The notes under the pieces were generated by a model. That model was not told the DNA's origin and did no database searches. It saw only the letters and a list, made by a program, of their open reading frames with translations. The position numbers and the translations under genes were made by a program. A stretch of DNA of 52,374 bases, taken from NCBI GenBank assembly GCA_947175645.1, contig CAMWNP010000019.1, forward strand, positions 1-52,374. Reading direction: 5' to 3'. Below are positions 5,222-47,821 of the stretch, in pieces. Within the stretch, counting starts at the first letter, position 1. Each line of letters opens with the position of its first letter. The DNA is from an uncultured Porphyromonadaceae bacterium (GTDB taxonomy: Bacteria > Bacteroidota > Bacteroidia > Bacteroidales > Muribaculaceae).

Positions 5222-6598
5222 ATGTTGACCACGGGTAAACTCGGCTTCTGGGGGCTCACCGCACTTGTTTTCGGTCTTGTGGTGGGTGTGGGAATCTATA
5301 ATCTGCCACAGAACATGGCCTCGGTGGCTTCACCCGGCGCGGTATTCCTGGCGTGGATGGTGACGGCTTTAGGAATTTTGCCCCTTGTGCTCGCATTCAA
5401 GTGGTTGAGTAACCGTTATCCGCAGTATAATGCAGGATTATATCAATATGCCCAGGCTGAATTCGGAAACTATGCCGGATTCAATATAGCCTGGGGCTAC
5501 TGGCTCTGCACGGCCTTCTCCAATGTGACCTACGGTGTGATGCTCAACGATTCCTGCGGTGCTTTTTTCCCGCGGCTGCTTGACCATGGCTGGGAAACCG
5601 TCTGTTTCGGGTCAGTGCTGATTTGGATAATGTATTTCATTGTTTCGCGGGGAATCAAAACAGCAAAGATCATCAACACCTTGCTGGCCGTGGTGAAAAT
5701 AGTGATGCTGATTTTCATAATCGCGGTGTTCGTCATTTTCTTCAGGATGAATCTTTTTGAGGCTGACATCTGGGGAAATGTTTCTGACCTCGGGGATGTT
5801 GCAACCCAGGTGAAAAGCACCATGATGATAACGCTGTTCTGTTTCTTCGGCGTTGAGGGAGCGGTCATGATGTCGGCGAGGGCCAAACGAAGTTCTGATG
5901 TGGGGCGGGCCGGAATCACCGGATTTCTCATCTCACTGGTGCTGTATGTGGCAGTGACACTGCTCTGTTTCGGACTGATGGGTAGGGCGAGACTTTCGGG
6001 CCTGCAGGACCCGTCGATAGCCTACATTCTGCGTGACACAGTTGGCGAGTGGGCCTACTGGTTTGTGATCATTGCCGTAATCGTGTCCCTTACAGGGGGA
6101 TGGGTGGCGTGGACCCTTGTGGTTGCACAAGTGCCTTACGAGGCATCATTGGTAGGGATTCTTCCGCGAAGTTTCCGCAGGCTGAACCGCCACGGTATGC
6201 CCGCTTTCGGACTTTTCGCTTCAAGCGTTGTCATGGAACTGTTTCTCATTATGGTGGTTATGGCCGACGATGTCTATATGGCCGCCCTGAGAATCACGGG
6301 GCTTATGATTATCCCCTGCTATTTCTTCACCGGATTATTCCTTCTGAAGAAAGCCGACCGTCTTCCCATCCGTCTGACAGCCGTCGTGACCTCGCTTTTC
6401 TGTCTGTGGATGGCTTATGCCGGCGGTCTGCTTGAGATGCTCATGACCTCAGTGTTCTATATCCTCGGGATAGGTTTTTACATCAAGGCGCGTCGTGAAA
6501 ACAACCATGGCGCACCACTTTTCACCACCGCGGAAAAATACGTGCTCGCACTCCTGCTCGCCGCATCGGCCTACACCATTGTGCTGTTCCTGAAATAG
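5222..6598 (+). CDS. APC-superfamily basic amino acid / polyamine antiporter
   Basis: Inner-membrane amino acid transporter, 458 residues with about 12 hydrophobic segments. The first helix carries the unwound G-x-G motif (FGLVVGVGIYNLPQNMAS, about 17-34) typical of the APA (basic amino acid/polyamine antiporter) branch. WGYWLCTAFSNVTYGVML near 92-108 and FCFFGVEGAVMMSARAKRSSDVGRAG near 207-232 are further branch-like blocks. Closest resemblance is to arginine/ornithine or lysine antiporters, but the substrate cannot be fixed from sequence. It stands alone between tRNA-Arg and tRNA-Lys. The 277 nt upstream hold the divergent tRNA promoter and no other gene. A GC-rich hairpin (GCCCGG/CCGGGC, about 6613-6630) follows the stop without a T run. 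Confidence 0.85.
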   Translation: MLTTGKLGFWGLTALVFGLVVGVGIYNLPQNMASVASPGAVFLAWMVTALGILPLVLAFKWLSNRYPQYNAGLYQYAQAEFGNYAGFNIAWGYWLCTAFSNVTYGVMLNDSCGAFFPRLLDHGWETVCFGSVLIWIMYFIVSRGIKTAKIINTLLAVVKIVMLIFIIAVFVIFFRMNLFEADIWGNVSDLGDVATQVKSTMMITLFCFFGVEGAVMMSARAKRSSDVGRAGITGFLISLVLYVAVTLLCFGLMGRARLSGLQDPSIAYILRDTVGEWAYWFVIIAVIVSLTGGWVAWTLVVAQVPYEASLVGILPRSFRRLNRHGMPAFGLFASSVVMELFLIMVVMADDVYMAALRITGLMIIPCYFFTGLFLLKKADRLPIRLTAVVTSLFCLWMAYAGGLLEMLMTSVFYILGIGFYIKARRENNHGAPLFTTAEKYVLALLLAASAYTIVLFLK

Positions 6599-6971: not shown

Positions 6972-6979
6972 CTTAAGAG

Positions 6980-7051
6980 TAGCCCATAGGAGAATCGAAC
7001 TCCTCTTTCAAGAATGAAAATCTTGCGTCCTAACCGATAGACGAATGGGCC
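6980..7051 (-). tRNA. tRNA-Glu (anticodon TTC), distal copy
   Basis: 72-nt cloverleaf on the minus strand. Acceptor GGCCCAT pairs with ATGGGCT, discriminator A; anticodon arm CAAGA-TTTTCAT-TCTTG gives TTC; T arm with GTTCGATTC. It is identical to the copy at 7367-7438 and lies 15 nt after rpsT, so it is probably cut from the rpsT transcript. Confidence 0.96.
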
Positions 7052-7066
7052 TTTACAAACAACTGC

Positions 7067-7330: not shown

Positions 7331-7366
7331 TATTTTGTTCTTTTATTTTCCTTATGTGTTAGTTTG

Positions 7367-7438
7367 TAGCCCATAGGAGAATCGAACTCCTCTTTCAAGA
7401 ATGAAAATCTTGCGTCCTAACCGATAGACGAATGGGCC
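7367..7438 (-). tRNA. tRNA-Glu (anticodon TTC), proximal copy
   Basis: 72-nt cloverleaf identical in sequence to the 6980-7051 copy (anticodon TTC, acceptor GGCCCAT/ATGGGCT). First gene of the tRNA-Glu/rpsT/tRNA-Glu operon. Confidence 0.96.
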
Positions 7439-7458
7439 TTTTGCCTATAAAGCGAGTG

Positions 7459-17884: not shown

Positions 17885-17919
17885 GTGAACTTTTTTGAAC
17901 TGACCGGTGTTATATAATC
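17885..17919 (+). promoter_or_regulatory. Promoter-like block of small-RNA copy A
   Basis: GTGAACTTTTTTGAAC (17885-17900) followed by TATAATC at 17913. The distance from GTGAAC to the TAnnATC element is 28 nt in all three copies. GAAC-N17-TC also resembles ECF sigma promoters; which sigma factor is used is not known. Confidence 0.5.
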
Positions 17920-17920
17920 A

Positions 17921-17998
17921 AAGCAAGAAACAAAGCAAGAAATGTGATAATGATTGGTTTATAACGAAACTGAGGCTGTCGGGAGACAGCCTTTTTTC
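17921..17998 (+). ncRNA. Putative small RNA, repeated family, copy A
   Basis: Intergenic unit of about 75 nt. It has a promoter-like block, a leader with repeated GCAAGAAA, a 35-nt core (17934-17968) identical to copies B and C, and an intrinsic terminator: stem GGCTGTC/GACAGCC (17974-17980, 17985-17991), loop GGGA, six T. The core begins AGCAAGAAATGTG and ends TTTATAACGAA and has no sensible reading frame. It is A/U-rich and mostly unpaired, which suits an antisense RNA. It sits between the fumarase terminator and the DUF308 gene. A Rho-independent attenuator for DUF308 is possible but does not explain the shared core. Confidence 0.6.
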
Positions 17999-18076: not shown

Positions 18077-18715
18077 ATGAGAACTCTTGGAAATTATCTT
18101 ACAGCATTGATTATCGGTGGAGCGGGTGCGCTATTGTGTATGATGAACTCGCGCACTCAGGTGGCCGACACCATAATAATGATACTCGGAGCCTTGTTTA
18201 TTCTGTGTGGAGTAATCACAATCTTCAGTGTATCACACGGTTCACGTCGTCAGCAGCAGGGAATTGTCATGCGCACCGTGGCCTGGATAACCTCAATAGG
18301 AGGAATTGGTCTGGCCGTGGCAATGCTTGTGTCGCCGGAATGGTTCATGGGGGTACTTGTGTACATGTTCTCGGCCATACTTATTCTCTGCGGCCTTGTA
18401 CAGGTGATAGCATTGACCTGGGGATACCGTGGCGTCCGTTTCCCCGGTTGGATGTATATCATTCCGGTTATACTCCTTGTGGCCGGAGTGACCATGATTT
18501 TCTCCGATTCGCTCCGCTACGATACTTCACGTATGTTGTTGATAGCAGGTATAGGACTGCTTTTGTTCGGCTTCAATTATCTGTTGCAGTTGATTATTGC
18601 GGCCGCTCGCCGTCCAAAACTTTCGCCCCGCGTTGAACGTCCGGCAGTGGCTTCCGAAAAGCAAGAGGAAGTAACCGGGAAGAGTGGTGCCGAAGGAGAT
18701 TCAACGGAGGCGTAA
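18077..18715 (+). CDS. DUF308 (HdeD-like) membrane protein
   Basis: Inner-membrane protein of unknown function, 212 residues. Six hydrophobic segments lie within residues 1-175, as in the HdeD/DUF308 family: YLTALIIGGAGALLCMM, TIIMILGALFILCGVITIF, VAWITSIGGIGLAVAMLV, VLVYMFSAILILCGLVQVI, GWMYIIPVILLVAGVTMIF and LLIAGIGLLLFGFNYLLQLII. A soluble Glu/Ser-rich tail follows. HdeD is tied to acid stress in E. coli; no such claim is made here. Its 3' end overlaps the convergent terminase gene by 15 nt. Confidence 0.82.
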   Translation: MRTLGNYLTALIIGGAGALLCMMNSRTQVADTIIMILGALFILCGVITIFSVSHGSRRQQQGIVMRTVAWITSIGGIGLAVAMLVSPEWFMGVLVYMFSAILILCGLVQVIALTWGYRGVRFPGWMYIIPVILLVAGVTMIFSDSLRYDTSRMLLIAGIGLLLFGFNYLLQLIIAAARRPKLSPRVERPAVASEKQEEVTGKSGAEGDSTEA

Positions 18716-24526: not shown

Positions 24527-24561
24527 GTGAACTTTTTCAACGCCATCGGCGTTTTATTATC
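24527..24561 (+). promoter_or_regulatory. Promoter-like block of small-RNA copy B
   Basis: GTGAACTTTTTCAAC from 24527 and TATTATC at 24555, again 28 nt apart. Confidence 0.5.
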
Positions 24562-24562
24562 G

Positions 24563-24640
24563 AAAGCAAGAAACAAGCAAGAAATGTGATAATGATTGGT
24601 TTATAACGAATTTAAGGCTGTCGGGAGACAGCCTTTTTTC
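24563..24640 (+). ncRNA. Putative small RNA, repeated family, copy B
   Basis: Same organisation as copy A: GCAAGAAAC leader, 35-nt identical core at 24576-24610, then stem GGCTGTC/GACAGCC (24616-24622, 24627-24633), loop GGGA and six T. Only 3-4 bases between core and stem differ from copy A. It lies after the hpf terminator and about 130 nt before blaI, so it does not look like a leader of either gene. Confidence 0.6.
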
Positions 24641-46880: not shown

Positions 46881-47044
46881 AGAGGGTGTGTCAAAACAAA
46901 AATTTTGGCACACCCTCTTAAGGTTTGTCAGAATATGCCGGATGCAAGACGCTGAGGATGAGGCTGATGGGAGCATACCTAAGTATGTGACCGAAGCCGC
47001 TTCCGAAAGCAACGACGCAGATGGCTTATTATGACACACCGTCT
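46881..47044. repeat. MITE-like element with hairpin end
   Basis: Ends AGAGGGTGTGTCA (46881-46893) and TGACACACCGTCT (47032-47044) are inverted repeats at 12 of 13 positions. The left end also forms a 16-bp hairpin with 46903-46918 (one G-T), which may terminate eno. The interior has CATAC/GTATG and a GTGACCGAAG segment, which resembles GTGACTGAAG in the element at 52-208 (minus strand). A 20-nt block at 46915-46934 recurs inverted at 50929-50948. No coding capacity. Confidence 0.5.
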
Positions 47045-47100: not shown

Positions 47101-47170
47101 CGAAAAAAGGCTGTCATCCCGACAGCCTTAATTTCGTTATAAACCAATCATTATCACATTTCTTGCTATG
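47101..47170 (-). ncRNA. Putative small RNA, repeated family, copy C
   Basis: Minus-strand copy: 35-nt core identical to A and B (complement of 47133-47167), then stem GGCTGTC/GACAGCC with loop GGGAT and six T. The leader is shorter, lacking the first GCAAGAAAC. Its promoter-like block lies at 47174-47208 and diverges from the acidic small-protein gene. Confidence 0.6.
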
Positions 47171-47173
47171 TTC

Positions 47174-47208
47174 GATATTATAACACACCACAGTTCAAAA
47201 AAGTTCAC
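47174..47208 (-). promoter_or_regulatory. Promoter-like block of small-RNA copy C
   Basis: Minus-strand GTGAACTTTTTTGAAC starting at 47208 and TAATATC starting at 47180, again 28 nt apart. Confidence 0.5.
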
Positions 47209-47683: not shown

Positions 47684-47696
47684 CTGACAGAAAATC

Positions 47697-47748
47697 GGTG
47701 GACAGATTTGACTGCTTGCAACCACCCCAAAAAAAATGCTAAAACGCC
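47697..47748 (+). promoter_or_regulatory. SAM-II-like riboswitch in the metK leader
   Basis: P1 stem GGTGG/CCACC (47697-47701, 47722-47726). The loop carries GATTTG (47705-47710) and CTTGCA (47715-47720), and the A-rich 3' segment carries GCTAAAA (47738-47744). These are the order and sequence of SAM-II conserved elements. The second pseudoknot helix pairs poorly (CTG against CGC), so the match is good but not complete. Placement before S-adenosylmethionine synthetase supports the call. Confidence 0.65.
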
Positions 47749-47821
47749 TCATTGTGGTCCCTCACGGGGTTGGATTGAGAGCCGGGATGTTCCGGCGAAC
47801 GTTATAACGGTAGTTTTGGGA

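Follow-up and report, generated by a model that had tools for sequence, protein, structure and literature searches.

The window, by which we mean the whole 52,374-nt stretch analysed, contains three intergenic copies (A, B and C) of a repeated unit with the parts of a small RNA (sRNA) gene, and their neighbours are genes for fumarase, a DUF308 protein, HPF, BlaI/BlaR1, enolase and SAM synthetase. The predicted ends place the sRNA of copy A at 17920-17998 (+), that of copy B at 24562-24640 (+), and that of copy C at 47102-47173 (-). An identical 35-nt core, AGCAAGAAATGTGATAATGATTGGTTTATAACGAA, occupies 17934-17968 (+), 24576-24610 (+) and 47133-47167 (-), respectively, and is followed in all three copies by a GGCTGTC/GACAGCC hairpin and a T-run; the stem arms lie at 17974-17980 and 17985-17991 in copy A, with a T6 run at 17992-17997, at 24616-24622 and 24627-24633 in copy B, and at 47121-47127 and 47109-47115 in copy C. 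Copies A and B also have in common a doubled GCAAGAAA. These features, first described in a sequence-only reading of this DNA, were all found as described, and the three copies were also recovered independently by a repeat search. Since the gene contexts of the copies differ, we share the view of that reading that the unit is not the leader of one gene; a small ORF in the core was rejected, its ATG being directly followed by TGA.

In each of the three copies, GTGAAC begins exactly 28 nt ahead of TAnnATC, as had been claimed. While this spacing stands, TAnnATC is not retained as an element of its own: it is better assigned to an ECF-type -10 (GTTATA), of which it would form part, GAAC being the -35, than to the usual Bacteroidetes TAnnTTTG. 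The promoter of copy A (17886-17914, +), found by promoter pattern search, consists of TGAAC at 17886-17890, N18, and GTTATA at 17909-17914, while that of copy B (24528-24556, +), found by pattern search and PWM, reads TGAAC-N18-GTTTTA. On the minus strand, the promoter of copy C (47179-47207) has TGAAC at 47203-47207, N18, and GTTATA at 47179-47184. The PWM, which was built from 67 sRNA promoters with that of copy A among them, scores the latter at 31.8, versus 8.2 for the best non-sRNA site of the window.

Several other features of the window may be recorded. The DUF308 (presumably HdeD-like) gene (18077-18715, +) lies some 80 nt downstream of copy A, an ordinary SAM-II riboswitch (47692-47752, +) is found at the S-adenosylmethionine synthetase gene, and a pair of identical tRNA-Glu genes, spaced by 387 nt, is located at 6979-7054 and 7366-7441. 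A dispersed intergenic element of about 160 nt (46882-47040, +), bounded by GGTGTGTCA/TGACACACC, begins with a hairpin, GAGGGTGTGTC/GGCACACCCTC; near-identical copies occur in the same genome on contigs C14 (L025, partly tandem), C6 (L309) and C4 (L316), with variants elsewhere, and it resembles a small non-coding element of the mobile or REP-like kind.

The source genome (3.17 Mb, 139 contigs) holds seven copies of the sRNA unit in all. Searching a 34-mer with up to three mismatches returned six sites, versus none for the reversed pattern, which excludes chance; the seventh, diverged copy (C8:14648, -) was first found via its promoter pattern. This copy keeps the core, and five of its nine terminator pairs are changed, four on both sides and one on one side. 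The proposed seed, TGATAATGATTGGTTTAT, which lies at 17945-17962 (+) in copy A and is complementary to SusC leaders (AUAAACCAAUCAUUAUCA), is identical across the seven copies, the last base of one excepted. Folding of five copies left the 5' part mostly open and the terminator strong, and in five of the seven an A-run of at least 6 lies within 35 nt upstream of TGAAC. That the copies might be fragments of a longer mobile element, the case which the sequence-only reading had set against its own claim, is ruled out: similarity ends at the promoter and the terminator, and the seven flanks beyond these are unrelated, with one 23-nt match as their sole common stretch. The HPF-sRNA-BlaI gene order of copy B is conserved in at least one other genome (it is found in L276 and L088, probably from one single genome), and HPF-sRNA in another.

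A covariance model (R1) was made from these seven copies, and gives 93.9 bits for copy A and 99.1 bits for copy C, both of which are in its training set. With the covariance-model search proposed in the earlier reading, the family turned up in 168 of the 248 Muribaculaceae genomes and 20 of the 30 genera sampled, with up to eight copies per genome in Muribaculaceae, and when 12 loci were compared with Rfam none matched a family at the gathering cut-off. The core is near-invariant across genera; a 21-mer taken from it occurs in at least 116 stretches, including Duncaniella muris DSM 103720, Paramuribaculum intestinale DSM 100749 and Muribaculum caecicola NM86_A22, together with a few metagenome bins labelled Clostridiales, Lachnoclostridium and Odoribacter. 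Most copies elsewhere possess a longer conserved part, AAAATTACTTTTTCCATTGCAAGAAATGTGATAATGATTGGTTTA. In most non-window copies, the 5' half is a 45-nt stretch, AAAAUUACUUUUUCCAUUGCAAGAAAUGUGAUAAUGAUUGGUUUA, complementary to an entire translation start, the leader together with AUGGAAAAAGU, and the reverse complement of the longer form resembles the start of an mRNA: UAAACCAAUCAUUAUCACAUUUCUUGCAAUGGAAAAAGUAAU. The first segment of the longer form was found in 108 of 149 distinct copies. The seventh copy of the source genome has it; the three window copies are devoid of it, keeping just the 3' part of that seed.

Strong matches are confined to Muribaculaceae among 393 genomes sampled from the order: a model of the longer form that uses sequence alone gave six genomes with values below 1e-8, each of them in this family, and values of 4.0e-5 to 0.01 at best in 37 genomes outside it. 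The weak matches outside Muribaculaceae were rejected as target-like sites, as they show no enrichment opposite gene starts (3 of 24, versus 4 of 24 on the sense side). The terminator helix covaries, with 98.5% of cells paired and both-sided changes in six of nine pairs over 36 distinct sequences, in an alignment that was fitted to the covariance model. A crude hairpin-plus-TTTT test was failed by 42 of the 149 copies, and the ten shown all fold below -17 kcal/mol. The copies, the terminator covariation, the unshared flanks and the start-site complementarity described below support the proposal, made in the earlier reading, that the window repeats belong to a paralogous, intergenic, trans-acting sRNA family, here in Muribaculaceae.

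Over the 149 distinct copies, the spacing between GAAC and GTT is 18 nt in 65 occurrences, 17 nt in 53, 15 nt in 6 and 19 nt in 1. We take this GAAC-N17/18-GTT arrangement to resemble ECF-sigma promoters. For Flavobacterium psychrophilum, an ECF motif has been proposed whose -10 region includes a conserved CGT (PMC9723704). When up to one mismatch was allowed, the promoter motif occurred 59 times in four same-genus genomes, compared to 16 times for the reversed control. Thirty of the 59 sites were read, of which 15 are tagged sRNA copies and one (L285) is, by eye, a diverged copy. The 14 remaining sites include DUF308 genes, presumably HdeD-like, in two species (G134 and G014). Motif sites also precede a fimbrillin-like lipoprotein in two species (by eye, no Pfam match), a YtxH gene, a Na+/H+ antiporter gene and a 103-codon ORF without a Pfam match, as well as genes with no obvious stress link, named by eye as an Era-like GTPase, a MoxR-like ATPase and an acyl-ligase. 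Judged by this shared motif, the sRNA copies seem to use an ECF-sigma-like promoter in common with stress-type genes.

In a scan of sigma genes (22 of the 29 listed TIGR02937 matches were taken, 21 with a usable ORF), the motif was found upstream of one of the 21, an ECF sigma gene of the source genome (L325; G000:C7:3333-3779), with a score of 17.9, the next best being 2.2. There it lies 84 nt ahead of the start and overlaps a TAnnTTTG box. No ortholog of L325 was found among the ten sigma genes of G014 that were compared, despite the six sRNA copies in that genome, and L325 is therefore not claimed as the driving sigma factor.

A 21-nt part of the reverse-complemented longer form, searched in 20 genomes with up to three mismatches, gave, besides the sRNA copies, nine antisense sites that were judged by their mismatches to be non-copies, versus one site for the reversed pattern; one more doubtful site, G151:C40:16390, proved to be a copy. 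A start codon lies within about 30 nt of six of the nine: those of two SusC-like genes (L187/L243 in G059, over the TIGR04056 cut-off, and L192 in G026, with CarbopepD_reg and Plug domains), a glycosyltransferase (L190 in G034, paired by both seed segments), a protein kinase (L191), a mandelate-racemase-like enzyme (L189) and a class-III aminotransferase. The remaining sites (L188, L194 and L195) do not adjoin a start. In the source genome, a 19-mer gave seven further near-matches, versus one for the control, and for four of these (L034, L037, L038 and L039) a plausible start is no more than about 35 nt away, L034 being the leader of an OPT transporter. Of the other three, L036 is located 88 nt ahead of a plausible start, while L035 and L040 are inside genes.

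For a test of SusC genes as a class, these were taken by TIGR04056 from three genomes, giving 39 matches over the cut-off; three without a matched N-terminus, one without a start and three duplicate leaders were left out, which leaves 32 SusC starts. Duplex energies, which disregard mRNA folding and take the first ATG as the start, were calculated at these and at 661 other starts, and turned into z-scores by comparison with dinucleotide-shuffled versions of the sRNA. At z<-3, the window form pairs with 10 of 32 SusC versus 21 of 661 other starts (Fisher 2.3e-7), and the longer form with 13 of 32 versus 20 of 661 (Fisher 9.6e-11); with similar leaders collapsed, the SusC counts are 9 of 30 and 12 of 30, respectively. 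The threshold is missed by 22 of the 32 SusC starts with the window form and by 19 with the longer form. Among the controls, the reversed window form gave 4 of 32 SusC versus 15 of 661 other starts and its complement 0 of 32 versus 5 of 661, while the longer form gave 0 of 32 versus 6 of 661 when reversed and 3 of 32 versus 8 of 661 as its complement. Three of the four controls lean towards SusC (MWU p = 0.011, 0.036 and 0.022; 0.86 for the fourth), so that part of the SusC signal is composition. An earlier run, superseded by the TIGR04056 set, had labelled 17 genes as SusC by a crude motif, and with the window form reached z<-2 at 7 of 17 SusC starts, compared to 98 of 757 starts of other genes and 36 of 774 intragenic places.

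Of the six SusC starts in the source genome, three reach z<-3 when the window form is used (C8:98241, C12:29787 and C8:91690). Furthermore, a TonB-receptor-like gene at C1:132288 (carboxypeptidase-regulatory and plug domains), which is below the TIGR04056 cut-off and outside the 32 SusC starts, has AAACCAAUCAUUAU directly before its start. The paired stretch extends to the AUG in 10 of the 11 duplexes shown, which would make blocked ribosome entry the natural mechanism.

As to whether the family is one already known from Bacteroides, a question which the sequence-only reading had left open, the Rfam model answers "no" for FopS (RF04319): four source-genome copies score 18.4-19.9 bits and copy A 18.0, against a gathering score of 56, and the full-length sequence L070 gave no FopS match at E<=10. 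The conserved 5' stretch of the FopS consensus that carries the seed, UUUUUCAUGGUAUUAGAUUUAAGG, is absent from the sRNA copies. The source genome has FopS genes of its own, two of them over the cut-off (C5:67475-67543 and C12:6777-6844, with 76.1 and 58.5 bits) and a third FopS-like locus below it (C6:19919-19993, 46.6 bits). Of the FopS loci L007-L009, the first two contain UUUUUCAUGGUAUUAGAUUUAAGG and L009 a variant, and all three show, by eye, TAnnTTTG, where the sRNA copies have TGAAC-N18-GTTWTA instead. In B. thetaiotaomicron, as described in PMC11697453, FopS comprises 14 paralogous sRNAs, 9 of the 14 intergenic, which the RRM protein RbpB antagonises. No RRM_1 (PF00076) protein was found in the source genome, though FopS genes are present there, or in G058, in a search with a positive control in Bacteroides ihuae, and RRM_1 proteins are absent from 148 of 150 Muribaculaceae genomes; two have one, G004 and G027 (86% and 82% complete), and neither of them matches the sRNA model. 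Hence, the helper of these sRNAs is probably not RbpB.

Overall, we consider it likely that the copies form a family of short intergenic sRNAs, transcribed under stress by an ECF sigma factor, which silence the translation of SusC/TonB-linked transporters by pairing with their start sites. The genes would be short (about 70-90 nt), with the seed in a conserved, mostly single-stranded 5' half and with a Rho-independent terminator at which the transcript would end. An ECF sigma factor sensing envelope or general stress would transcribe all copies together, and by pairing with SusC/TonB-linked transporter mRNAs, and with some other mRNAs too, over their leader and start codon, the sRNAs would then keep ribosomes from entering. 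The outcome would be a joint shutdown of glycan-uptake systems.

Other readings of the same repeats can be framed. One, which we think unlikely, accepts the sRNAs as real and has them act mainly on other mRNAs, the SusC signal being a by-product of AU-rich, stereotyped leaders. The strong matches outside SusC (OPT transporter L034, glycosyltransferase L190, kinase L191 and mandelate-racemase-like enzyme L189) and the SusC lean of three of the four control sequences speak for it, yet the z-scores are relative to dinucleotide shuffles on the same target, and the real sequences reach z<-3 at 10 and 13 of 32 SusC starts, compared to 0-4 of 32 for the four controls. We regard as distinctly improbable a role in sequestering an RNA-binding protein, as sponges or decoys, with copy number as dosage and target complementarity as an incidental feature. 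The 45-nt conserved stretch does exceed what one seed needs, and a length of 55 nt is stated for the site at which RbpB binds FopS-10 (PMC11697453); however, the known partner is missing from 148 of the 150 Muribaculaceae genomes, RRM_1 being absent, and the conserved stretch looks antisense to a start region. It is hardly credible that the repeats are DNA elements rather than genes, be it mobile element ends, REP-like repeats or bidirectional terminators: dispersed, several to a genome and on both strands they certainly are, but constant promoter spacing, a covarying terminator, a near-identical core, unshared flanks and the conservation of gene order at copy B (HPF-sRNA-BlaI in one further genome or more, HPF-sRNA in yet another) all argue against this.

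The sRNA core has also been found in a phage. Among viral contigs, the exact 21-mer occurs in one, the IMG/VR contig L337, where it is intergenic and followed by a terminator (5794-5860), on a contig with terminase, dUTPase, helicase and exonuclease genes by PHROGs; no ECF-like promoter is visible ahead of this copy. An 18-mer occurs in six contigs, lying in open frames in the five other than L337, and a second 21-mer gave no match in viral contigs. In phage records, the sole matches were two 19-nt stretches, in Bacillus and Rossellomorea phages.

Muribaculaceae, which feed on polysaccharides, are the dominant bacteria of the mouse gut, and our literature search returned nothing on their small RNAs among the matches listed. 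If start-site silencing of SusC by these sRNAs holds true, a set of sRNA genes, their seed and their targets would be defined for this family of bacteria, and stress response and diet use would be joined in one circuit. In Bacteroidales, silencing of SusC by repeated sRNA genes would moreover have arisen or been rewired more than once, and it could do with no RRM protein of the kind that antagonises FopS in Bacteroides. A bolder extension, which we offer as a tentative and on balance doubtful idea, is that Muribaculaceae evolved a second, RbpB-independent SusC-silencing regulon, in which one ECF stress signal fires up to eight near-identical genes alongside a separate FopS, and of which at least one phage captured the core and terminator. 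The phage copy could then silence TonB-linked outer-membrane receptors of the infected cell, for example excluding competitors.

Silencing of SusC translation by many sRNA paralogs is already known from FopS, whose conserved part is described as pairing with translation starts, including those of SusC genes (PMC11697453). The two families are alike in having several copies per genome and an open 5' part with a Rho-independent terminator, and also in that a phage copy is reported for FopS (PMC11697453) and one was seen for the window core (L337). They differ in that the window family has another seed, an ECF-like rather than a sigma-ABfr promoter, and no RRM_1 protein in 148 of the 150 genomes. 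The window sRNAs probably work like FopS, repressing SusC translation. In E. coli, RybB and MicA are sRNAs dependent on the envelope-stress factor sigma-E that silence outer-membrane protein mRNAs; they depend on Hfq and are not known to occur in many copies. The likeness to the window sRNAs is one of wiring logic only, that of the window family being a predicted one. GibS of B. thetaiotaomicron likewise pairs with translation initiation regions of metabolic mRNAs, and differs, by its description, in its two seeds, termed R1 and R2, and in a promoter with the PM2 motif (PMC11697453). Finally, the paralogous multi-copy Bacteroides sRNAs BTnc020, 054, 075, 172, 213 and 266, which are among the RbpB ligands, are set apart by their description as adjoining transposases or invertases (PMC11697453), unlike the copies of the window.
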